NCBI RefSeq assembly: GCF_003003055.1
Contig: NZ_PVTV01000012.1
Location: 186,001-250,000, forward strand
DNA from: Jezberella montanilacus
GTDB taxonomy: Bacteria > Pseudomonadota > Gammaproteobacteria > Burkholderiales > Burkholderiaceae_B
Length of the DNA stretch: 64,000 nucleotides
Reading direction: 5' to 3'
The notes beneath the pieces were generated by a model. It did not search any database. It had not been told where the DNA came from and worked only from the letters and a program-made list of their open reading frames with translations. Made by a program: the position numbers and the translations under genes. Positions 27,841 to 38,157 of this stretch are shown here, piece by piece (position 1 is the stretch's first letter; every line of letters starts with the position of its first letter).

Positions 27841-28332
27841 ATGGCATCGGTCAATAAAGTAATTTTGGTGGGTAATCTTGGCCGCGATCCAGAGGTGCGT
27901 TACAGCCCCGATGGCGGCGCAATCTGTAATGTGTCGATTGCAACGACCAGCAGCTGGAAGGACAAAACATCCGGCGATCGCCGTGAAGAAACCGAATGGC
28001 ATCGCGTCGTGTTCTACAACCGTCTGGCTGAGATCGCAGGCGAGTACTTGCGCAAAGGTCGTCCTGTTTACGTAGAAGGCCGCCTAAAGACGCGCAAATG
28101 GCAGAACAAAGAAGGCGTCGATCAGTACACGACTGAAGTCGTCGCTGATCAAATGCAGATGCTTGGTGGCCGTGACAGTGGCGGCGACAGTATGGGCGGT
28201 GGGGCACCGGATGGGATGAACGACAGTCAACCCGCGTCGCGTCCAGCGGCCAGACCGCAAGGCCAGCGGCCAGCAGCACCGGCGGCAAATGGTGCCAATT
28301 TGGCGGATATGGAAGACGACATTCCGTTTTAA
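27841..28332 (+). CDS. ssb: single-stranded DNA-binding protein
   Basis: A 163-residue SSB with an N-terminal OB fold ([20 protein letters not shown] start, [21 protein letters not shown] core), a glycine/proline/glutamine-rich linker from about 110, and the acidic tip MEDDIPF that recruits repair and replication proteins. It is essential for replication, recombination and repair. A perfect 9 bp hairpin with T-rich tail follows. Upstream order uvrA-MFS is kept, but with an inserted block. Confidence 0.98.
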
Positions 28333-28365
28333 AGTCCGTGTTGTTAGCAGTTTCGATTAAGCCAG

Positions 28366-28395
28366 CGGGGTCATGAAGATGACCCCGTTTTGTTT
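28366..28395 (+). terminator. rho-independent terminator after ssb
   Basis: CGGGGTCAT (28366-28374), loop GAAG, ATGACCCCG (28379-28387), then TTTTGTTT. A perfect 9 bp stem with a T tail closes the ssb transcript. Confidence 0.92.
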
Positions 28396-28470
28396 AAACA
28401 AGACAAAATCGGCGTCACGTCTGAAGGCAGCTAGCTAGATCTGCACGCTGACTAGCGCCACCACCTGAAG

Positions 28471-28487
28471 TTGGCACAAATATTGCT
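28471..28487 (+). promoter_or_regulatory. sigma-54 (RpoN) -24/-12 promoter of the atzF-ABC-atzGEH operon
   Basis: The sequence TTGGCAC-AAATA-TTGCT matches the sigma-54 consensus TGGCAC-N5-TTGCW. The GG (28473-28474) and GC (28485-28486) doublets are separated by exactly 10 bp. Transcription would start near 28498, 24 bp before the GTG start and just before its GGGAG ribosome site. Sigma-54 promoters need an enhancer-binding activator such as NtrC, and nitrogen limitation is the common signal for ureido-nitrogen genes. An NtrC-type GCAC-N-GTGC palindrome was not clearly seen upstream. Confidence 0.85.
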
Positions 28488-28521
28488 CATATCCCTGAAC
28501 AAAACAGGGAGACGCAATACC

Positions 28522-30258
28522 GTGCAGCCACCATTCGCTGGAATCACTCGCAGACCAGCTACCGCTGAGGCCACAGAGGCCGATTCGGCGTGGATCACGC
28601 GCGTGTCCGCTGAGCCCTCCAATCAGCAGCAATCGCAGGCTGGCTCTGGTCCCCTGGATGGTTTGCACTTTGCTGTCAAAGACAATATTGACGTAGCGGG
28701 TTTACCGACAACCGCCGGATGCTCGGCTTTTGCTTACACGCCGAGCGAGCACGCCCACGTAGTGGAACGCTTGCTTCGGGCAGGCGCGCGCCTGGCAGGC
28801 AAAACCAACCTCGATCAGTTTGCTTGCGGCCTCAACGGAACACGTTCTCCCTACGGCCCGGTTCCGAATGCGCTCAACCCGGCCTATGTTTCGGGCGGAT
28901 CCAGTTCCGGCTCGGCTTACGTCGTGGCCAAAGGCTTGGCCGACTTCTCGCTGGGCACGGATACGGCAGGCTCGGGCCGTGTGCCCGCCGGTTTGAACAA
29001 CATTGTGGGCCTGAAACCGACTCGTGGTTTGATTTCGGCCCGAGGGGTGGTGCCCGCAGCACAAAACGTCGATTGCGTCTCGATTTTTGCAATGACAGTC
29101 TCAACGGCAGCGAAGGTGTTGCAGGCTTGCATAGGCTATGACGAGGCGGATCCGTTTTCCCGAAGGGTTACGATGGCATCGAAACCCTTACCAGCAAAGT
29201 TTCGCTTTGGCGTACCCGATACCCTTGAATTCTTTGGCGACAAACTCGCTGAGGCGGCTTTTACCCAGTCCCTTGAGCAGCTGACGGGCCTCGGTGGTAC
29301 CGCGGTGACGATTAATTACGCACCGCTCGCGCAGGCCGCGGCCATGCTCTACGACAGTGCATTGGTCAGTCAGCGGTATACCGCCATCCAAGCATTTTTT
29401 GATGCCCATGAAGAAGAGGTGATCGAGCCGGTACGCAGCATCATCGCCAAAGGACGGCAATATAGCGCCGCCGACTACATTCGTGCTGAGATTGATATGC
29501 TGGCCCTCAGTCAAGTCGCCGGTCGGATGTGGCAAGAGATAGACGTACTGTTTGTGCCGACCGCACCGACGCACTACACCATCGATCAAATGCAAGCGGA
29601 TCCTGTCGCCCTTAACCGTAACCTTGGGCAATACACCAACTTCGTTAATCTGTTTGACTACGCTGCGCTGTCGGTGCCCAGTCTGATGAGGCCTGATGGA
29701 TTGCCCTTTGGCGTCACCCTGATTGGCCCTGCTGGCAGTGACTGGCAACTGGCCGATCTGGGCCAGCGCTATCACCATGCCACGGGTTTATCGCTTGGCG
29801 CAACCACACGGTCCTTGCCTGAGCCAGCACCCATCGCAGCCTTGCAAGCCCCAGCTACGGTAAGGGTCGCAGTGGTAGGGGCTCACCTTAGCGGTATGTC
29901 CTTGAACTGGCAACTGACTGAGCGGGATGCGACCTTGGTCGAGGCTACGCATACGGCACCAGACTATCGCTTTTTTGCGTTAGCAAATTCGCAACCGCCC
30001 AAACCTGGTTTGTTGCGTGTGGAGCCAGGCAAGGGGGCCGCAATCGCCCTCGAGATCTGGGAGATGCCGCTAACCCACTACGGTTCCTTCGTTGCGTTGA
30101 TCCCAGCCCCGCTGGGGATTGGCACCTTGACACTCGCCGATGGCTCTTCAGTACAAGGCTTCGTTTGTGAAGCACAAGCGCTAACAACCGCGACGGATAT
30201 TACTCACCTGGGCGGATGGCGCGCCTACGTAAACAGCTTGACCCACTCAACCAATTGA
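28522..30258 (+). CDS. atzF: allophanate hydrolase, AtzF type
   Basis: AtzF hydrolyses allophanate, the last step of s-triazine and biuret-type degradation, releasing ammonia and CO2. The N-terminal amidase-signature domain has the Ser-cisSer-Lys triad: K about 52 in FAVKDNID and serines in SGGSSSGS near 127-133. The C-terminal domain from about 450 (VAVVGAHLSGM, APDYRFFAL, PPKPGLLR, IPAPLGIGT, LGGWRAYV) is the one unique to allophanate hydrolases. I choose the GTG at 28522: GGGAG lies 11 bases ahead, and an upstream TTG at 28471 is itself part of the sigma-54 promoter. The resulting 578 residues are close to the family length of about 600. An ABC importer and atzG-E-H genes follow, with no urea carboxylase gene. 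Confidence 0.92.
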   Translation: MQPPFAGITRRPATAEATEADSAWITRVSAEPSNQQQSQAGSGPLDGLHFAVKDNIDVAGLPTTAGCSAFAYTPSEHAHVVERLLRAGARLAGKTNLDQFACGLNGTRSPYGPVPNALNPAYVSGGSSSGSAYVVAKGLADFSLGTDTAGSGRVPAGLNNIVGLKPTRGLISARGVVPAAQNVDCVSIFAMTVSTAAKVLQACIGYDEADPFSRRVTMASKPLPAKFRFGVPDTLEFFGDKLAEAAFTQSLEQLTGLGGTAVTINYAPLAQAAAMLYDSALVSQRYTAIQAFFDAHEEEVIEPVRSIIAKGRQYSAADYIRAEIDMLALSQVAGRMWQEIDVLFVPTAPTHYTIDQMQADPVALNRNLGQYTNFVNLFDYAALSVPSLMRPDGLPFGVTLIGPAGSDWQLADLGQRYHHATGLSLGATTRSLPEPAPIAALQAPATVRVAVVGAHLSGMSLNWQLTERDATLVEATHTAPDYRFFALANSQPPKPGLLRVEPGKGAAIALEIWEMPLTHYGSFVALIPAPLGIGTLTLADGSSVQGFVCEAQALTTATDITHLGGWRAYVNSLTHSTN

Positions 30259-30284
30259 CCTTTTACCCACCCGTGGAGTTCTTC

Positions 30285-31304
30285 ATGACCCATCGCACCT
30301 TGACAGCTAAGTCCCATGTCTCAACTTCGCGCCGCAAGCTCTTGCAAGCTGGCGTAGCCACCGGTGCATTGAGCGTCCTGGGAGCGCACCCTCTGGTTCA
30401 AGCGCAAACCACCCCAAAAATCCGCATCGGGTATTGGCCCATTGCGGCGGGTCTGCCCTTTTATGCGGCGCTTGAAAAAGGCTACTTCAAAGAGGCTGGT
30501 CTGGACGTTGAAGGCGTTAAATTCGCCAGCGCTGCACAGATCATGGAAGCAATGCTTGCCGGTCGTTGTGACGGTAGTGCCAACGGTACCGGTTCAGCCA
30601 ACTTAGGCATCGGTGAAGTTGCCTCCCCTGGTACTTTCAAAATCTTTGCGTCCAACCCAAGTAATGTCAAAGACGTGTTGGACGAATTTTTAGTCGCCTC
30701 CAGCAGCCCAGTAAAAACCATGGCTGAGCTCAAAGGTAAAAAAGTAGCCTCCGGACCGGGCATTCAAAACCTGACGCTGGCCAGAACAGTACTTGAGCGC
30801 GCAGGCGCTACCGGGGCGACCGTGATTGAACTGCCGATTGCACAACACGTGGCAGCACTTGCGGCAGGTCAGGTTGATGCTGTCTATACCCTGGAGCCGA
30901 CCGGTACGATTGGCCGTTTGAATGGCGCCACCCGCGTCCTGGAAGCTGGCGTCATCTCCAAGTACATCCTCGGTGATGCGATGGCTCCGTGGTTCGGTGG
31001 TTCGGCTTCACTGACCGCAGATTTTGTTAAAAAGTATCCGGCTGAGACCAAGAAATTTGTCACGGCCTATGGCAAAGGTATTGATTACGTGCGCAAGAGT
31101 ACCGTTGAGGCGCGTCAGTACTTGAAGGGCTACACCGCGATCGAAGGCGATCTCACGGCAGAAGTCCCGATGGCTGCCTATACGATGTACAACGAATTCA
31201 CGCCCAAAGATATCGAATACTTTCAGAAATTCTTCGATCTGTTCTTTGATAAAGGGATCTTCACGTCGCGCCCCATGGTCGAGTCCATGCTGTACAAGGG
31301 ATAG
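30285..31304 (+). CDS. ABC transporter substrate-binding protein (NMT1/SsuA-like), Tat signal
   Basis: A 339-residue periplasmic binding protein of the nitrate/sulfonate/taurine (NMT1/THI5-like) family. The N-terminus carries a twin-arginine signal, SRRKLLQAGVATGALSVLG (about 16-34), cleaved after VQAQ. The mature part starts KIRIGYWPIAAGLPFYAALEKG, the family ligand-cleft region. I chose the ATG at 30285 for the GGAG 8 bases ahead and for the signal peptide. The frame is open further upstream inside atzF. It is followed 2 bp later by the permease gene. The context predicts a ureido or carboxylated urea ligand, but the sequence does not identify it. Confidence 0.9.
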   Translation: MTHRTLTAKSHVSTSRRKLLQAGVATGALSVLGAHPLVQAQTTPKIRIGYWPIAAGLPFYAALEKGYFKEAGLDVEGVKFASAAQIMEAMLAGRCDGSANGTGSANLGIGEVASPGTFKIFASNPSNVKDVLDEFLVASSSPVKTMAELKGKKVASGPGIQNLTLARTVLERAGATGATVIELPIAQHVAALAAGQVDAVYTLEPTGTIGRLNGATRVLEAGVISKYILGDAMAPWFGGSASLTADFVKKYPAETKKFVTAYGKGIDYVRKSTVEARQYLKGYTAIEGDLTAEVPMAAYTMYNEFTPKDIEYFQKFFDLFFDKGIFTSRPMVESMLYKG

Positions 31305-31306
31305 TC

Positions 31307-32077
31307 ATGCAGGATACCAATCGCTGGAATCCAGCACGGCTCATGCCACTGATAGGCCCAGTGGCCCTGTTCTTGATCTGGGATCTGGTGGTGAGGTTCA
31401 AGCTAATACCCCCCATCCTTTTACCTTCGCCGTGGGCAACGTTGGGCGCACTCTTTACCGGAATGGGAGGGGGTAGCCTGTCTGGCGATTTCGCGTACAC
31501 CCTGCTGCGAACGTCAGAAGCCTTTCTGATTGCAGCGGTGATGGGCGTCCCGCTGGGCGTATTGCTGGGCAGTAACGAGCGTGCCTACCGGAGCGTCGAG
31601 TTTGTGATTGATTTCTTTCGCTCCACCCCCTCGTCAGCCCTCATCCCCTTGTTTCTGATGATTTTTGGCGTTTCTGATATCAACAAGGTCGCAATCGCCG
31701 CCTTTGGTGCGCTCTTGATCGTCCTGTTCAATAGCGCCTATGGGGTGATTAACGCCCGCAAGCAGCGAGTCATGGCGGCCAAGGTGATGGGCGCCAGTCG
31801 CTTTCAGATTTTCAAAGATGTGCTGATCTGGGAAAGTCTGCAGCCAACGTTTGTAGGCTTACGAAGCGCCGTATCCATGTCACTGGTGATTGTCATTGTG
31901 GCGGAGATGTTCATTGGTTCTGAGCGAGGTCTTGGCCATCGCATCATCGACTCGCAGCAAGTCATGAATGTCAAGGATATGTATGCATCCATCCTGGCCG
32001 CTGGTGCACTCGGGTACGTTTTAAATATTATATTTTTAGTGTTCGAAAAACGAATCGTGCACTGGAGTGGGAGATAA
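31307..32077 (+). CDS. ABC transporter permease (SsuC/TauC-like)
   Basis: A 256-residue inner-membrane permease with about six hydrophobic segments. The EAA-type coupling loop reads AAKVMGASRFQIFKDVLIWES near 145-165, with the conserved glycine that contacts the ATPase. The family (SsuC/TauC/NrtB) works with NMT1-type binding proteins, as here. It is 2 bp from the binding protein gene and 2 bp from the ATPase gene, so the three are surely co-translated. Confidence 0.93.
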   Translation: MQDTNRWNPARLMPLIGPVALFLIWDLVVRFKLIPPILLPSPWATLGALFTGMGGGSLSGDFAYTLLRTSEAFLIAAVMGVPLGVLLGSNERAYRSVEFVIDFFRSTPSSALIPLFLMIFGVSDINKVAIAAFGALLIVLFNSAYGVINARKQRVMAAKVMGASRFQIFKDVLIWESLQPTFVGLRSAVSMSLVIVIVAEMFIGSERGLGHRIIDSQQVMNVKDMYASILAAGALGYVLNIIFLVFEKRIVHWSGR

Positions 32078-32079
32078 AG

Positions 32080-32901
32080 TTGAGCGTCGTCCTGAACCCC
32101 CTGATCGCGCCCGATCCACCGCCGCCGGCGTTTGTTCCCGGCCCAGTTGGTACGCACATCACGATTCGCAATCTGACCAAATATTTTGCCGGTGCTCCGT
32201 TATACGAGGACTTCAATTTAAACATCCCGAAAAACAAAATCGTCTCGGTGTTTGGTCCCAATGGTTGCGGCAAGAGCACACTGATCAACATGATTGCGGG
32301 CCTGATCCCGATCGATCGTGGCGAGATTCTGTTTGATGGCAAATCTTTAAGCGAGACCAAGATTGGTTATGTGTTTCAGAACTACCGCGAAGCACTGTTC
32401 CCCTGGATGCGTACCATTGATAACATTGCCTATCCGCTCAAGCTTGAAGGGAAGTCAAAAGCGGAAGTCGCGCAGCGCATGGAAGAGCTGATCGTCTCCT
32501 TTGATGTGAATTTCGACCTTAAGCGCTACCCCTATGAATTGTCGGGTGGCCAGCAACAAACAGCCTCGATCATGCGTGCTCTGGCACCCAAGCCCGAAGT
32601 ATTATTTTTGGACGAACCATTCTCGGCGCTCGATTTTGAGATGACCTTGTTTATCCGTGAGAAATTGCAAGACGTATTCATGCAAACCGGCACCACCATG
32701 CTGCTGGTCTCACACGATTTAGAAGAGGCCGTCTACTTGGCCGATCAAATCTTGTTGCTCACCAAGAGACCAACTAGTGTCGCCGAAATCTTGAATTACG
32801 ACGATCCGCGTCCCCGCACCATCGAAACCTTGTCTCAACCGAGCTTTATTGAGGCCAAGAAACTAAGCCTTGAAATTTTCCAGCGTGAGGTACGTAAATG
32901 A
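32080..32901 (+). CDS. ABC transporter ATP-binding protein (SsuB/TauB-like)
   Basis: A 273-residue ATPase that powers the importer. Walker A is GPNGCGKST at about 59-67, the Q-loop is YVFQNYREALFPW, the signature LSGGQQQ is near 152 and Walker B is VLFLDEPFSALD near 173. A proline-rich stretch of about 25 residues precedes the ABC fold. The start is TTG at 32080, 2 bp after the permease stop. No nearby in-frame ATG exists before the conserved HITIRNLTKYF. The stop overlaps the atzG start as ATGA. Confidence 0.93.
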   Translation: MSVVLNPLIAPDPPPPAFVPGPVGTHITIRNLTKYFAGAPLYEDFNLNIPKNKIVSVFGPNGCGKSTLINMIAGLIPIDRGEILFDGKSLSETKIGYVFQNYREALFPWMRTIDNIAYPLKLEGKSKAEVAQRMEELIVSFDVNFDLKRYPYELSGGQQQTASIMRALAPKPEVLFLDEPFSALDFEMTLFIREKLQDVFMQTGTTMLLVSHDLEEAVYLADQILLLTKRPTSVAEILNYDDPRPRTIETLSQPSFIEAKKLSLEIFQREVRK

Positions 32902-33089
32902 ACCAAGCAGAGACCCTTGATTTTGTGTTGATCAGTGCCAAAGCACTGGGTATTCCCATGGACGCAGCCTGTGCAGAAAGAGTCGCCGCGCATTTGCAGC
33001 GCACGGCCGCAATGGCCAAGATGCTCGAGAGTGCAGCGTTGACACCGTTTGATGAGCCTGCTGAAATCTTCTGCCCAAAGCCACAGTGA
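32898..33089 (+). CDS. atzG: AtzG-like small subunit (DUF4089)
   Basis: A 63-residue protein that matches the DUF4089/AtzG pattern: an N-terminal amphipathic helix (LDFVLISAKALGIPMD), a second helix (CAERVAAHLQRTAAMAKMLES) and a PFDEPAEIF tail. AtzG is a GatC-like subunit that stabilises the amidase AtzE in an AtzE2-AtzG2 complex. The motif fits an N-terminal DxxDPAP-like strand running across the amidase. It overlaps the ATPase stop by 4 bp and ends 1 bp before atzE, the expected arrangement. Its small size makes it easy to miss in annotation. Confidence 0.85.
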   Translation: MNQAETLDFVLISAKALGIPMDAACAERVAAHLQRTAAMAKMLESAALTPFDEPAEIFCPKPQ

Positions 33090-33090
33090 C

Positions 33091-34488
33091 ATGAACACAC
33101 AAGCATTCAGCGCAGATCAACTGGCTAGTGGTATCGCCCGTGGTGATTTCACTGCTGGCGAGGTCGTGGCGGCTTACATCAAGCGTATCGAGGACACCGA
33201 GGCAAAAGTCAACGCCTTCACCACGCGCTGTTTTGACCGCGCGCTTCAAGAAGCCCAAGCCATTGACGGGCGTCGCGCTCAAGGCGAGCCGCTTCCGCCT
33301 CTGGCAGGCGTGCCTTATGCGGTGAAGAACCTGTTCGATATAAAGGGGGTGGTTACCTTCGCTGGCTCAAAAGTCAACCAAGCCAACCCACCAGCGCAAG
33401 CTGACGCGTTTTTGGTGCAACGGCTGCAGGCAGCCGGTGCTGTGCTCATGGGTGGACTCAATATGGATGAGTTCGCTTATGGCTTCACAACAGAGAACTC
33501 GCACTATGGGCCAAGCCACAACCCCCATAATCTGGCTTGCATTGCAGGGGGTTCTTCTGGTGGATCGGGTGCGGCCGTAGCTGCGCGCCAAGTGTCCCTC
33601 TCGCTGGGATCAGACACCAACGGGTCGATCAGAGTTCCCGCATCCTTGTGCGGTGTTTGGGGCTTGAAGCCAACCTTTGGTCGTCTTTCAAGAAGAGGCT
33701 CTTATCCCTTTGTGCACAGTATTGACCACTTAGGGCCATTTGCCGACTCACTGAGTGGCCTTGCGCTGGCTTACGACGCCTTGCAAAGTCCAGACCACCT
33801 GGATCCCGGGTGTCACGCCAGACGTATCGAGCCTGTATCGACGGCCCTGACGGCAGGCCTGCAAGGGTTGCGCATTGGCATACTCGACGGTTACTTCCAT
33901 GAAAACGCGAGTGCCTCCGCTCTCCAAGCGGTAGAGGCTGCTGCCCGCGCGCTCGGTGTGACCGCTCACGTCACGTGGCCTGACGCAGCATTAGCACGCG
34001 CAGCAGCTTTTATTGTCACCGCAAGCGAAGGGGGGCAATTGCATCTGGACCACCTGCGTACGCAAGCGCAAGACCTCGAGCCCCTGTCGGTTGATCGTTT
34101 TATGGCCGGAGCGTTGCAACCCGCAGCCTGGTATGTGCAGGCGCAGCGCTTTCGCCGCGTCTATCGGGATCGCGTGAATAAATTGTTCGAAAACTGGGAT
34201 GTCTTGTTAGCGCCCGCGACGCCGGTAACTGCCCCAGCGATTGGCACAGAGTGGCTGAGCTTAAATAATCAGCAACTGCCTAGCAGAGCAGCAATGGGGA
34301 TCTTGACCCAGCCGATTTCCTTTGCTGGCTGCCCGGTATTGGTCTCGCCGCTTTGGCCGGAGGCTGCGGGAAGCATGCCCTTGGGCGTGCAAGTCATTGC
34401 GGCGCCATGGCGCGAAGAACTTGCGTTTCGGGTCGCCCATGTTTTAGAAACGAGCGGCGTGGCGCATCTGAACCCAGTGGAGTTTTGA
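33091..34488 (+). CDS. atzE: AtzE-like amidase (1-carboxybiuret hydrolase family)
   Basis: A 465-residue amidase-signature enzyme. In Pseudomonas sp. ADP AtzE deaminates 1-carboxybiuret. The Ser-cisSer-Lys triad is visible as K about 79 in YAVKNLFD and serines in GGSSGGSG near 153-160, with the SLGSDTNGSIRVPASLCG loop that carries the nucleophile. The ATG at 33091 follows the atzG stop by one base. The frame is open further upstream but that part is the atzG gene in another frame. Its partners atzG and atzH lie on either side. The sister amidase AtzF is encoded at the head of the operon. Confidence 0.9.
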   Translation: MNTQAFSADQLASGIARGDFTAGEVVAAYIKRIEDTEAKVNAFTTRCFDRALQEAQAIDGRRAQGEPLPPLAGVPYAVKNLFDIKGVVTFAGSKVNQANPPAQADAFLVQRLQAAGAVLMGGLNMDEFAYGFTTENSHYGPSHNPHNLACIAGGSSGGSGAAVAARQVSLSLGSDTNGSIRVPASLCGVWGLKPTFGRLSRRGSYPFVHSIDHLGPFADSLSGLALAYDALQSPDHLDPGCHARRIEPVSTALTAGLQGLRIGILDGYFHENASASALQAVEAAARALGVTAHVTWPDAALARAAAFIVTASEGGQLHLDHLRTQAQDLEPLSVDRFMAGALQPAAWYVQAQRFRRVYRDRVNKLFENWDVLLAPATPVTAPAIGTEWLSLNNQQLPSRAAMGILTQPISFAGCPVLVSPLWPEAAGSMPLGVQVIAAPWREELAFRVAHVLETSGVAHLNPVEF

Positions 34489-34863
34489 ATGGACATTAAT
34501 TTGCCGGAGGTACTGGCTGAAGTCAGAGCAGTATTCGAACAATACGAAGAGGCGCTGGTCAACAACGATGTCGTGACGCTCGATGCATTGTTCTACAACA
34601 GCCCCCATACCTTGCGTTATGGTGCGACCGAAAATCTGTATGGTTATGAAGCCATTCAGGCTTTTCGCGCGAACCGACCTTCCCAAGGCTTGGCTCGGGA
34701 GAGAATGAACATTGTCATTACGACCTATGGCCGCGACTTTGCCACGGCTAATACCGAGTTTAAACGCGCAGGTAATGACCGTATCGGTCGTCAGAGCCAA
34801 ACCTGGCTGAGGACGCCCGAGGGCTGGCGTGTGGTGGCAGCACACGTTAGTTTGATGGGATGA
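34489..34863 (+). CDS. atzH: AtzH-like protein (DUF3225, NTF2 fold)
   Basis: A 124-residue protein of the DUF3225 (SnoaL/NTF2-like) family, beginning [20 protein letters not shown], then [25 protein letters not shown] and the C-terminal [21 protein letters not shown]. In the cyanuric-acid pathway AtzH is a decarboxylating amidohydrolase that converts 1,3-dicarboxyurea, the AtzE product, to allophanate, so it bridges AtzE and AtzF. It starts with the base after the atzE stop and ends the operon 6 bp before a hairpin. Confidence 0.88.
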
Positions 34864-34868
34864 AAGCT

Positions 34869-34892
34869 AAACGCCCTCTGAGGAGGGCGTTT
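34869..34892. terminator. hairpin terminator between atzH and the PRC-barrel gene
   Basis: AAACGCCCTC (34869-34878), loop TGAG, GAGGGCGTTT (34883-34892): a perfect 10 bp stem between two convergent genes. The flanking A and T runs let it work in both directions, although the T tail beyond the stem is short. Confidence 0.85.
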
Positions 34893-34922
34893 AAGGTGCG
34901 GCTTGGACGCGGCTGAGTACCG

Positions 34923-35351
34923 TTAATCCTCTATTGCACTCTCATAGACTTCATGCGGCTTGGTCCCATAGTACTTATGTACGCCATGAGACCAGGTTTG
35001 ATCTGACATATTAGGCCAGTCTTCGTTGTCGAAACCGGGTGCGTCAGCCAGCCGGTCTTTAGAAACATGCAAAATGAAGCGCTTGTTTTCGGTGTCAAGG
35101 GTCAGCGCTTCCCAAGGTACAGCAAATAACTTTTCGCCCAGGGTCAGTACACCACCGAAAGACAGCACGGCATAACAGATGCGACCGGCAGCCACGTTAA
35201 GCATGATCTCTTTGATATCACCAAGGTGCTCATTCTGGCGGTTGTACACGTCGTTGCCGATCAGCGTATGGGCACCCATCAGCCTCGGGCCCGGGCCGTG
35301 GTGATCAGGCACTGTGTACATACCGTAGGTATCTTGTTCTAGATAATTCAT
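34923..35351 (-). CDS. PRC-barrel domain protein
   Basis: A 142-residue cytoplasmic protein. Residues about 25-90 form a PRC-barrel: LMGAHTLIGNDVYNRQNEHLGDIKEIMLN, AVLSFGGVLTLGEKLFAVPWEAL and LDTENKRFIL. Such small beta-barrels occur in stress, photosynthetic and RNA-processing proteins and mediate binding, not catalysis. The tail (GFDNEDWPNMSDQTW to KPHEVYE) is shared with many betaproteobacterial PRC-barrel proteins often induced under stress. A good ribosome site, GAGGAAA, lies just ahead of the start. It has no operon partner. Confidence 0.88.
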   Translation of the reverse strand: MNYLEQDTYGMYTVPDHHGPGPRLMGAHTLIGNDVYNRQNEHLGDIKEIMLNVAAGRICYAVLSFGGVLTLGEKLFAVPWEALTLDTENKRFILHVSKDRLADAPGFDNEDWPNMSDQTWSHGVHKYYGTKPHEVYESAIED

Positions 35352-35613
35352 GGATGTTTCCTCTAAGCTGTGAGTGGACGGGCAATCAATTTCAACAATC
35401 GCCGTGGGTGCAAGGAATCGCCTCGATTGCGAATGTGGCTTGAACCCTGAGTCAGATTAGCGTTGGTCGTGTACCAGGTCGGTGCGCTCGCATACAAAGG
35501 AAAAGCAATCAGTTCTGGTATATTTTTTGTTTAATCTGCTCCGTGCGTTGCCGTACAGCCAAACCGGCAGGCGTATCGGATAATGAAACCCCCAAACAAC
35601 CGGACGAAGAACA

Positions 35614-36291
35614 ATGAAACTGGGCCGCTTTTTTCCCCAACATCTTCGAAATTATCAGCTGCTGGTTTTAGGTGCAGCGGTTATTTCCAGTGGTTTCCTC
35701 TTGCTCTCATACACCATGACTAGTCACGCAACCGAAGAACCTGACTATAAAGTTGTGCAGAAACTCACCGAGGATATCGAGATCCGTGAATACGGCACCT
35801 ACGCCGTTGCTGAAGTCCTTGTTCAAGGCTCCGCCAGCGAAGCGGGTAACACCGCCTTCCCCATCCTTGCAGGCTACATCTTTGGCAAAAACAAAGGCGA
35901 GCGCAAATTAGAGATGACCGCGCCGGTGACCCAGACCGCTGAGCCAGTGAAATTAGAGATGACGGCACCTGTCACTCAGACCGCGGCTGCAGACGGCTTT
36001 ATCGTTCAGTTTGTCTTGCCCAAAGGGGTCACGGTTGCGAACGCACCCGAGCCGACTGACGAAAGGGTCAAGCTGAGAGACATCGCCCCAAAAAAGATTG
36101 CTGTCATACAGTATTCGGGATTCTGGTCTGACGCTAACTACAACGAGCACTTAGATCAGTTGCAGGCCGCCTTGCGCCAGGCTAATTTAGTTACTGAAGG
36201 CGAGCCAGTCTATTCGCGTTACAACGCACCGTTCACGCTGTGGTTTTTACGCAGGAATGAAATCTGGTTGCACTTGGCGAAGACACAATAA
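35614..36291 (+). CDS. SOUL family heme-binding protein
   Basis: A 225-residue SOUL/HBP-family protein with an N-terminal membrane anchor or signal segment (about 16-35). The SOUL domain starts at PDYKVVQKLTEDIEIREYGTY, contains two copies of the MTAPVTQTA loop (near 100-125), and ends with NAPFTLWFLRRNEIW. Members bind heme or tetrapyrroles weakly, or act as membrane-associated proteins of unclear function in bacteria. It is a single gene with 262 bp upstream in which I see no clear promoter. The twin loop is normal for bacterial members. Confidence 0.88.
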   Translation: MKLGRFFPQHLRNYQLLVLGAAVISSGFLLLSYTMTSHATEEPDYKVVQKLTEDIEIREYGTYAVAEVLVQGSASEAGNTAFPILAGYIFGKNKGERKLEMTAPVTQTAEPVKLEMTAPVTQTAAADGFIVQFVLPKGVTVANAPEPTDERVKLRDIAPKKIAVIQYSGFWSDANYNEHLDQLQAALRQANLVTEGEPVYSRYNAPFTLWFLRRNEIWLHLAKTQ

Positions 36292-36393
36292 CTTCCAGGT
36301 GTGTATGAATCGCAAATAACCTATTCTTATTCTTTACCCAGATCCAGTTTATTCCTCAGCGCCTGAACTTTTATCCTTTTTGAACACATCGAC

Positions 36394-38157
36394 ATGTCAA
36401 ACCAAGACAAACCCAGTAACCACAACATCAATCCCTCGGCCAACCTGGATGGCATGTCTAAAGGCTTGACCAATTACGGCGATCGCGGCTTTTCGCTGTT
36501 TTTGCGTAAAGCCTTTATTAAAGGCGCGGGTTATACCGACAAGGCGCTTGACCGGCCTGTGATTGGCATCACCAATACTGGTAGTTCATACAACCCCTGC
36601 CACGGCAACGCGCCACAGCTGATTGAGGCAGTCAAGCGCGGTGTCTTGATGGCCGGTGGCTTGCCCATGGACTTTCCGACCATCTCTATTCACGAGAGTT
36701 TCTCGTCGCCCAACAGCATGTTCCTGCGCAACCTCATGTCTATGGATACTGAAGAGTTGCTGCGCGCACAGCCGATGGATGCCGTGGTATTGATCGGTGG
36801 TTGCGATAAAACCGTCCCTGCCCAATTGATGGGGGCGGCCTCAGCGGGCTTACCTGCAGTTCAGTTGATCACAGGATCAATGTTGACCGGATCCCATCGC
36901 GGTGAGCGTGTGGGCGCCTGTACGGATTGCCGCCGCTACTGGGGTAAGTTTCGCGCCGATGAAATCGACGCGGAAGAAATTGCGGATGTGAACAATCAAC
37001 TGGTGGCGAGCGTTGGCACTTGTTCGGTCATGGGCACGGCAAGTACCATGGCCTGCATCGCGGAAGCTCTGGGGATGACAGTGCCAGGCGGTGCTTCGCC
37101 ACCAGCGGTCACGGCTGATCGTATCCGCGTGGCAGAACGCAGTGGTGAATTGGCTGTGGAGATCGCGCGTAAACAATTGACCATTGACAAGATCCTGACG
37201 GCCAAGGCGTTTGAAAATGCCATGCGGGTGTTACTGGCGATTGGCGGGTCAACCAACGGCATCGTTCATTTGACTGCGATTGCGGGCCGCATGGGCTTTG
37301 AGATTGATCTTGACGCACTGGATCGTATGGGTCGCGACACACCTGTCCTGCTGGATCTCAAGCCATCTGGTGATCATTACATGGAAGACTTCCACCACGC
37401 AGGCGGGATGGCCACACTGTTGCGAGAACTCAAGCCTTTGTTACATCTTGATGCCTTAACCGTCACGGGTCGCACGCTGGGCGAAGAACTTGACGCGCAA
37501 GGCCCTGGCTTTGAGCAACACGTCGTGCGCACAAGCGCCAACCCTATTTATCCTCAAGGCGGTATTGCAGTCTTGCGCGGTAACCTTGCACCGGGTGGCG
37601 CCATCATCAAACAGTCGGCAGCCAATCCCAAGCTCATGGAGCACGAAGGTCGCGCGGTCGTGTTCGAGAACCTTGAAGACATGGCCAACCGGATTGATGC
37701 AGATGATCTGGATGTGACGGCCGACGATATTCTGGTGCTTAAAAACATCGGTCCCAAGGGTGCCGCCATGCCAGAAGCTGGCTATATGCCCATCCCCAGA
37801 AAGCTTGCGCGCGCAGGGGTCAAAGACATCATCCGGATTTCAGATGGCCGCATGAGCGGTACCGCCTTTGGCACCATCGTTTTACACGTGACCCCAGAAT
37901 CCGCCATCGGTGGTCCACTGGCCTATGTGCAAAGCGGTGACCGGATCAAGCTCAGTGTTGCTAACCGAGAATTGACCTTGCTGGTTAATGCAGAAGAGCT
38001 CGGTCGCCGGGCACAAGCCAAACCAGTGGTTGAACCCACTGCAACGCGCGGCTATCGCAAGCTGTTTTTGCAAAGCGTCACGCAAGCAGATAAGGGTGCA
38101 GATTTTGATTTTCTGATGCCACCCGCCACGGCAGGTAGTATTCCAAAAGACAAATAG
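36394..38157 (+). CDS. IlvD/Edd family dehydratase (sugar acid or dihydroxyacid)
   Basis: A 587-residue iron-sulfur dehydratase. Cluster cysteines are C69 (NPCHGN), C137 (GGCDKT) and C210 (GTCSVMG), the [2Fe-2S] pattern of the family. Motifs KGAGYTDKALDRPVIGI, FPTISIHESF and the C-terminal ISDGRMSGTAFG agree. The sequence around SYNPCHGNAPQLIEAVKRGV resembles the L-arabinonate/sugar-acid dehydratase branch more than the amino-acid pathway IlvD. A Bug receptor gene follows 97 bp downstream, which would supply an acid substrate. Dihydroxyacid dehydratase of valine/isoleucine synthesis remains possible. Confidence 0.88.
   Translation: MSNQDKPSNHNINPSANLDGMSKGLTNYGDRGFSLFLRKAFIKGAGYTDKALDRPVIGITNTGSSYNPCHGNAPQLIEAVKRGVLMAGGLPMDFPTISIHESFSSPNSMFLRNLMSMDTEELLRAQPMDAVVLIGGCDKTVPAQLMGAASAGLPAVQLITGSMLTGSHRGERVGACTDCRRYWGKFRADEIDAEEIADVNNQLVASVGTCSVMGTASTMACIAEALGMTVPGGASPPAVTADRIRVAERSGELAVEIARKQLTIDKILTAKAFENAMRVLLAIGGSTNGIVHLTAIAGRMGFEIDLDALDRMGRDTPVLLDLKPSGDHYMEDFHHAGGMATLLRELKPLLHLDALTVTGRTLGEELDAQGPGFEQHVVRTSANPIYPQGGIAVLRGNLAPGGAIIKQSAANPKLMEHEGRAVVFENLEDMANRIDADDLDVTADDILVLKNIGPKGAAMPEAGYMPIPRKLARAGVKDIIRISDGRMSGTAFGTIVLHVTPESAIGGPLAYVQSGDRIKLSVANRELTLLVNAEELGRRAQAKPVVEPTATRGYRKLFLQSVTQADKGADFDFLMPPATAGSIPKDK

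Follow-up and report, generated by a model that had tools for sequence, protein, structure and literature searches.

A conserved sigma-54 promoter and a putative ureide-nitrogen function for the atzF-ABC-atzGEH operon of Jezberella montanilacus

The window analysed here, a 64-kb stretch of the Jezberella montanilacus genome (contig NZ_PVTV01000012.1, positions 186,001 to 250,000), carries between ssb and ilvD an operon of seven intact genes, all on the + strand and separated by 26, 2, 2, −4, 1 and 0 bp. The first, atzF (28522..30258), encodes an allophanate hydrolase whose amidase domain (PF01425) and allophanate-hydrolase C-terminal domain (PF21986) both exceed their curated cut-offs, as does the family model TIGR02713 (759 bits). 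It is followed by the genes for an NMT1/SsuA-like binding protein with a twin-arginine N-terminus, SRRKLLQAG (30285..31304; PF09084), an ATP-binding cassette (ABC) permease (31307..32077; PF00528) and an ABC ATPase with a TTG start (32080..32901; PF00005), and then by atzG, encoding the small partner subunit of AtzE (32898..33089; PF13318, 31 bits), atzE, encoding an AtzE-family amidohydrolase (33091..34488; TIGR02715, 688 bits for a cut-off of 426), and atzH/hpxZ, encoding the decarboxylating partner of the NTF2 fold family (34489..34863; PF11533; NF033625, a model named HpxZ, 209 bits). An earlier, sequence-only reading of this DNA had described the seven genes in this order with gaps of at most 26 bp, which the family models bear out, and had placed the operon from 28471 to 34892. 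The upstream limit does not hold: 28471 is the TTG of a mechanically called open reading frame that overlaps the promoter, and the probable atzF start is the GTG at 28522, preceded by GGAGA and in agreement with the N-termini of relatives. The downstream limit stands in part, as the last gene ends at 34863 and the additional bases take in a terminator-like hairpin (34868..34893, + strand), an inverted repeat read directly in the sequence that the terminator scan did not list.

Upstream of atzF lies a sigma-54 (RpoN) −24/−12 site, TGGCACAAATATTGCT (TGGCAC-N5-TTGCT; 28472..28487, + strand), the sole strict match when both strands of the 64-kb window are scanned. We compared it with the best 80 AtzE loci of 514 confirmed, which together with the window make up 81 loci; many of these end at contig ends, and the gene counts given below for the 81 loci are lower bounds. 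In every locus with an atzF match, a relaxed site was searched in the stretch that begins 260 bp before atzF and ends 60 bp into the gene. Of the 41 readable loci of the NMT1-importer type, one of them the window, 39 have it, as do 9 of the 11 remaining atzF loci, for a background expectation of 0.0096 per locus. Note that L014 is counted in the latter class, yet its importer abuts atzF, and that L050 lacks atzF, yet a sigma-54 site precedes its binding-protein gene. With the element conserved in orthologues and rpoN present in the host genome, the prediction that the operon is RpoN-driven, already made in the sequence-only reading, is supported. Behind ssb, a second terminator-like hairpin (28364..28389, + strand; 11 pairs then a T-rich tail in the scan, a consensus match only, in a region where such matches are no more numerous than in shuffles) would insulate the operon from the ssb transcript.

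The nearest PDB structures to AtzE (6c62), AtzG (6c62_C) and AtzH (6bjt) are those of the Pseudomonas ADP enzymes, and the nearest to AtzF is an allophanate hydrolase (4gyr). AtzE and AtzH are both 66% identical to their ADP counterparts; for Klebsiella HpxY and HpxZ the values are 52% and 60%. AtzF is ~50% identical to ADP AtzF. A quick maximum-likelihood tree was built from 91 AtzE rows; 32 of its inner branches are open, and the careful search for it is unfinished. In this tree, the window AtzE groups with L001–L004 (Limnohabitans-like) with a Shimodaira–Hasegawa-like approximate likelihood ratio test (SH-aLRT) value of 99, and ADP AtzE is nested within an 84-row family containing the window (SH-aLRT 99), the two enterobacterial HpxY rows lying outside. 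The window protein thus belongs to the AtzE family both by the model cut-off and by sharing a clade with the ADP enzyme. Among 174 near-invariant columns of an 82-row core (which leaves out the divergent rows L051 and L077, five distant ones and both rows of HpxY), 27 differ in both HpxY rows, and at 26 of these the window has the core residue; the distant rows show no clean split by gene context at the 27 columns, so single residues are to be read as leads, not proof. AtzH keeps nine of the nine pocket residues given in PMC6219798 (Tyr22, Arg46, 63, 66 and 73, Phe94, Arg96, Gln106 and Gln108). Because of the AtzE identity and these nine conserved residues, the chemistry of AtzEG, AtzH and AtzF is probably the same as in Pseudomonas ADP, with a different source of substrate. 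The idea that AtzE, AtzG and AtzH play another role here than in herbicide metabolism is therefore retained for the source of the substrate, and probably not for what the enzymes do.

We take the N-terminus of the binding protein to be a twin-arginine translocation (Tat) signal; the twin arginine itself is present in 20 of 20 aligned rows. The identity of the protein to its 19 relatives, 64–87%, suggests a single conserved ligand. PDB sequences gave weak matches alone, to exported, sulfonate-, nitrate- and THI5-type proteins, and we dropped a ligand inference from an AlphaFold model (20 rows; mean predicted local distance difference test score 58.5).

The J. montanilacus genome (3.16 Mb, rated 100% complete) yielded no match to the family of AtzD, the cyanuric acid hydrolase, in a search that was positive in 6 of the 8 genomes or records covered, its own included. 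Its best match to the BiuH model reached 47 bits, compared with ~230–256 for proteins of the TrtA (triuret hydrolase) type and 406–424 for BiuH (biuret hydrolase). The absence of AtzD, first noted for the operon, thus extends to the whole genome, and the same is found for BiuH. The earlier proposal that the operon naturally serves ureide-nitrogen use, and not the metabolism of herbicides, is also supported. Urea carboxylase likewise had no own-genome match over cut-off (biotin-carboxylase-like matches reach at most 557 of the 1304 bits needed), which makes urea amidolysis unlikely for AtzF, and a urea amidolyase role was rejected.

Gene content around atzE was then counted at an analyst-set limit of 58% identity. 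Among the 81 loci, at least 55 carry atzF, 58 the NMT1 importer, 67 AtzH, 33 TrtA, 30 BiuH, 36 a BMP-type binding protein and 3 AtzD. In one common layout, atzF-importer-atzGEH is followed by genes for a BMP-type transporter, in some loci a formamidase-like protein, then BiuH, TrtA and a regulator of the GntR family. The TrtA-type proteins of L034 and L001 have 6xix as top PDB match (304 and 315 bits, versus 216 and 209 for the best BiuH), a structure identified as TrtA (PMC7948467), and alignments of the two show all TrtA residues listed in that source: D24, F29, F35, N41, K129, K132, A134, E160, C162, Y187, Q202 and I205. Forty-four loci are well flanked (at least 8 kb on both sides of the cluster); atzF is found in 37 of them, and in five (L001, L002, L045, L047 and L069) TrtA occurs without BiuH, the whole genome of L001 having a single TrtA-level match and no BiuH over cut-off. 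Among the well-flanked loci, the NMT1 importer is present in 16 of the 18 without TrtA, BiuH or AtzD (the two exceptions also lack atzF), in 13 of the 20 with TrtA and BiuH, and in 5 of the 5 with TrtA alone. These numbers fit an importer that acts as a way in of its own and suggest two entries into one pathway, the contrast being a weak one among related loci. In whole genomes, TrtA/BiuH (at an analyst-set limit of 200 bits) were searched in 34, mostly chosen because no BiuH-like gene lies beside the cluster, and AtzD in those of the first 50 of the 80 loci. Of the 28 genomes tested for both, 14 have neither, those of the window and of L004 included, a number inflated by incomplete metagenome-assembled genomes (MAGs) and by most genomes having been picked for no BiuH near the cluster.

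This arrangement of genes is not new. In Burkholderiales clusters, atzG-atzE-atzH is preceded on its own strand by an allophanate hydrolase gene, with ABC genes in between in about half of the genomes surveyed, and it has been suggested that atzGEH is older than the cyanuric acid operon (Esquirol et al, 2018; PMC6219798, Fig 6C/S3). The window operon has the same genes, strand and order, with atzF upstream, then the ABC genes, then atzG-atzE-atzH; it stops after atzH, whereas the published clusters continue into ABC and amidase genes. Both the layout and the idea that atzGEH predates triazine degradation are thus already published. The additions made here are the conserved sigma-54 site, the nesting of ADP AtzE in a Burkholderiales family and the presence of TrtA near atzE in 33 of the 81 loci. 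The available parts of PMC6219798 show no promoter, TrtA link or tree for these clusters, and neither the conserved site nor the TrtA-AtzGEH neighbourhood was found in print in the open-licence literature among the matches listed. The Pseudomonas ADP atzDGEHF operon (pADP-1, L081) shares the AtzG, AtzE, AtzH and AtzF orthologues; it differs by AtzD coming first, a LysR regulator beside it, atzF coming last, no NMT1 importer in the stretch and no sigma-54 pattern within 14.4 kb.

We propose, with a probability of about 0.6, that the window carries a nitrogen-limitation operon, under sigma-54, that scavenges a small carboxylated or polymeric ureide via carboxybiuret-type chemistry and allophanate. 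The substrate, which we infer to be a ureide, would be bound by the exported NMT1-type protein and imported together with the ABC permease and ATPase. AtzEG would deaminate a terminal ureido group (R-CO-NH-CO-NH2 to R-CO-NH-COO−), AtzH would remove CO2 to give allophanate, and AtzF would split the latter into ammonia and CO2, in a reaction order inferred from the Pseudomonas ADP enzymes, of which AtzEG deaminates 1-carboxybiuret, AtzH probably turns 1,3-dicarboxyurea into allophanate and AtzF releases ammonia (PMC6219798). A nitrogen regulator presumably activates the operon. In relatives, TrtA is a likely supplier of carboxybiuret, by cutting triuret: 1-carboxybiuret is the TrtA product and AtzEG has been named as an existing enzyme for it, the available parts of the source describing no joint TrtA-AtzEG cluster (PMC7948467). 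Triuret, entering through TrtA and carboxybiuret, is thus a candidate drawn from relatives, one that the sequence-only reading had not named, and J. montanilacus itself lacks TrtA; there the importer's own substrate would have to enter the pathway without it.

Several points weigh against this proposal. The AtzD and TrtA/BiuH searches found no enzyme known to produce carboxybiuret in the own genome, and urease is present, so AtzF is not strictly required for nitrogen recovery. Only 2 of 48 sigma-54 sites have an NtrC-like pattern upstream, and sigma-54 control is not confined to AtzD-free clusters, as seen in L053. Of the 68 loci with at least 3 kb downstream, 12 have no AtzH in the vicinity of atzE (L021, L022, L029, L038, L052, L056, L065, L069, L070, L072, L077 and L078), so the AtzH step must be dispensable or supplied elsewhere. 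The importer contrast is weak (Fisher p 0.026 for the atzF-bearing loci of the first two groups, kinship uncorrected), and the five TrtA-only loci, all of which carry the importer, break a simple either-or rule. ADP AtzE is not known to act on biuret. Strain ADP is unable to degrade biuret (PMC6219798). Finally, the half-life of carboxybiuret, ~20 min (PMC7948467), makes its import unlikely, and a stable precursor should be imported instead.

The main rival, unlikely in our judgement, is an oxalurate route. In it, AtzEG and AtzH would act as HpxXY and HpxZ and convert oxalurate, once imported, to oxamate, from which an additional enzyme resembling HpxW would release oxalate and ammonia. The bond chemistry would be alike, AtzH passes the cut-off of the HpxZ model, and HpxX, HpxY and HpxZ of the hpxWXYZ operon (Klebsiella L082, Serratia L126) are homologous to AtzG, AtzE and AtzH. 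The Hpx operon differs by HpxW, of the gamma-glutamyltransferase family, at its head and by the lack of AtzF in the stretch. The window operon contains no HpxW, and by sequence, tree and the 27 contrasting columns its AtzE sides with the ADP carboxybiuret enzyme, Klebsiella HpxY lying outside its clade. AtzF, so frequent in the well-flanked loci, has no evident place in this route. The own genome does hold an HpxW-like gene of the gamma-glutamyltransferase family (G000:C1:492786-494381; L132:8775-10388), a possible oxamate amidohydrolase, 54% and 65% identical to the two pieces of Klebsiella HpxW; it is unlinked to the operon, and no other hpx-like genes were recognised in the 19 kb read around it. 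In the Klebsiella locus itself (L082:10250-11787), the hpxW region matches in two pieces that lie in different frames, with no gene listed there. HpxW-like genes lie inside 4 of the 81 loci (L001, L002, L004 and L046), three of the four being among the closest relatives, and an HpxW match of at least 50% identity is absent from 12 of the 26 genomes searched. In L046, HpxW stands in for most of atzF. In the stretch L046:5020-7078, from a Hydrogenophaga MAG, a gene resembling HpxW and the beginning of one resembling a symporter run into the last ~50 codons of atzF; the junction sits directly before the importer, and the rest of atzF and the sigma-54 site are lost. We do not press this swap as proof of an oxalurate function, because such a junction can also be a plain rearrangement and because another contig of that genome carries a further atzF-like gene (52%).

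A quite improbable alternative is that the operon completes a triuret or biuret pathway whose TrtA or BiuH is encoded elsewhere in the genome. The described pathway, TrtA-TrtB-BiuH-AtzF (PMC7948467), shares carboxybiuret with the one proposed here and likewise ends in allophanate and AtzF, with isochorismatase-like hydrolases and a decarboxylase in place of AtzEG and AtzH. The frequency of TrtA and BiuH near atzE in relatives speaks for such a pathway. The 47-bit best match, from a search that covered TrtA and BiuH in a genome rated complete, speaks against it and largely refutes it for the own genome save for a non-homologous triuret or biuret hydrolase.

That the operon is a decaying remnant left after loss of an entry enzyme is, in our view, very improbable. 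Its distribution in the genus is patchy: a true AtzE (>700 bits) occurs in 3 of 32 genomes, the others giving at most 242 bits, as other amidases would score. In one genus-mate (G027, L133:10496-12757, on the contig shared with L011), atzG, atzE and atzH are kept and the binding protein is a stub; no atzF, permease or ATPase adjoins them, as a remnant would predict. Against this stand the seven intact window genes with conserved promoter and catalytic residues, and the recurrence of the same core where AtzD and TrtA/BiuH are likewise lacking, Limnohabitans sp. B9-3 (L004) being one example.

Degradation of cyanuric acid with AtzD encoded elsewhere is barely credible: AtzE, AtzG, AtzH and AtzF do form the ADP set and 9 of the 50 relatives' genomes searched hold an AtzD-family gene, yet the own genome has none where positive controls were detected, and no NMT1 importer is seen in the available stretches of any of the six AtzD-linked loci. 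In five of the AtzD-linked clusters, atzF is not the first gene and no sigma-54 site precedes it. A whole-locus scan of the six placed a site 58 bp ahead of atzD in L053, whereas in L055, L061, L081, L083 and L084 the 260 bp that precede atzD contain none; L061, L083 and L084 are near-copies of one another. We had considered the sigma-54 site as a divider of AtzD-free from AtzD-linked operons and withdrew it because of L053, which reads atzD-atzF-atzG-atzE-atzH (L053:3404-8236; AtzD 79% identical to the ADP enzyme), an arrangement that favours cyanuric acid and may stand midway between the importer operons and the operon of the triazine plasmids. AtzD-linked rows are scattered over more than one place in the quick tree, and with its 32 open forks we claim no count of AtzD recruitments. 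The L061, L083 and L084 clusters (an AtzD-family gene, atzF, atzG, atzE and atzH) are near-identical in Pseudomonas helleri and on plasmids from P. aeruginosa and P. putida, with AtzD 99% identical, which points to recent transfer; in the plasmid copies, a nucleobase-type permease and an OprD porin follow atzH.

Returning to ureide scavenging, we extend it, tentatively and as a possibility we consider rather doubtful, to a general scheme. Here atzGEH would be a nitrogen-controlled Burkholderiales system for uric-acid oxidation products, in which TrtA makes carboxybiuret and AtzEG, AtzH and AtzF finish the job without TrtB or BiuH (e.g. L001 and L045), the NMT1 importer would be a second entry for another stable acylurea and the sole entry in J. 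montanilacus, and herbicide plasmids would later have borrowed atzGEH. Uric acid can be oxidised chemically to triuret, for which natural sources are hypothetical (PMC7948467), and parabanic acid, itself a uric-acid oxidation product, gives rise to oxaluric acid (PMC5703782). The operon offers a natural task that can be tested, and a conserved promoter of the nitrogen type, for enzymes characterised via herbicide breakdown. Should the link with TrtA hold, Burkholderiales would have a second way to use the nitrogen of triuret, and a natural reservoir would be identified that could have supplied atzGEH to the triazine plasmids.

The interval between ssb and ilvD that houses the operon (27841-36394) also contains PRC-barrel and SOUL genes. 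Compared with genus loci L144-L164, ilvD was found near ssb in 9 of 27 other ssb loci (26 genomes, several loci being short). Six of these genus-mate gaps were read by eye: five hold a short-chain dehydrogenase/reductase (SDR), one a nitrilase-like gene and none the operon. The interval is thus a variable slot. The G+C content of the operon, 55.4% versus 53.6% for the window, equals that of the highest 6.3-kb sliding window; the difference is small, and we do not press it as a sign of recent plasmid capture.

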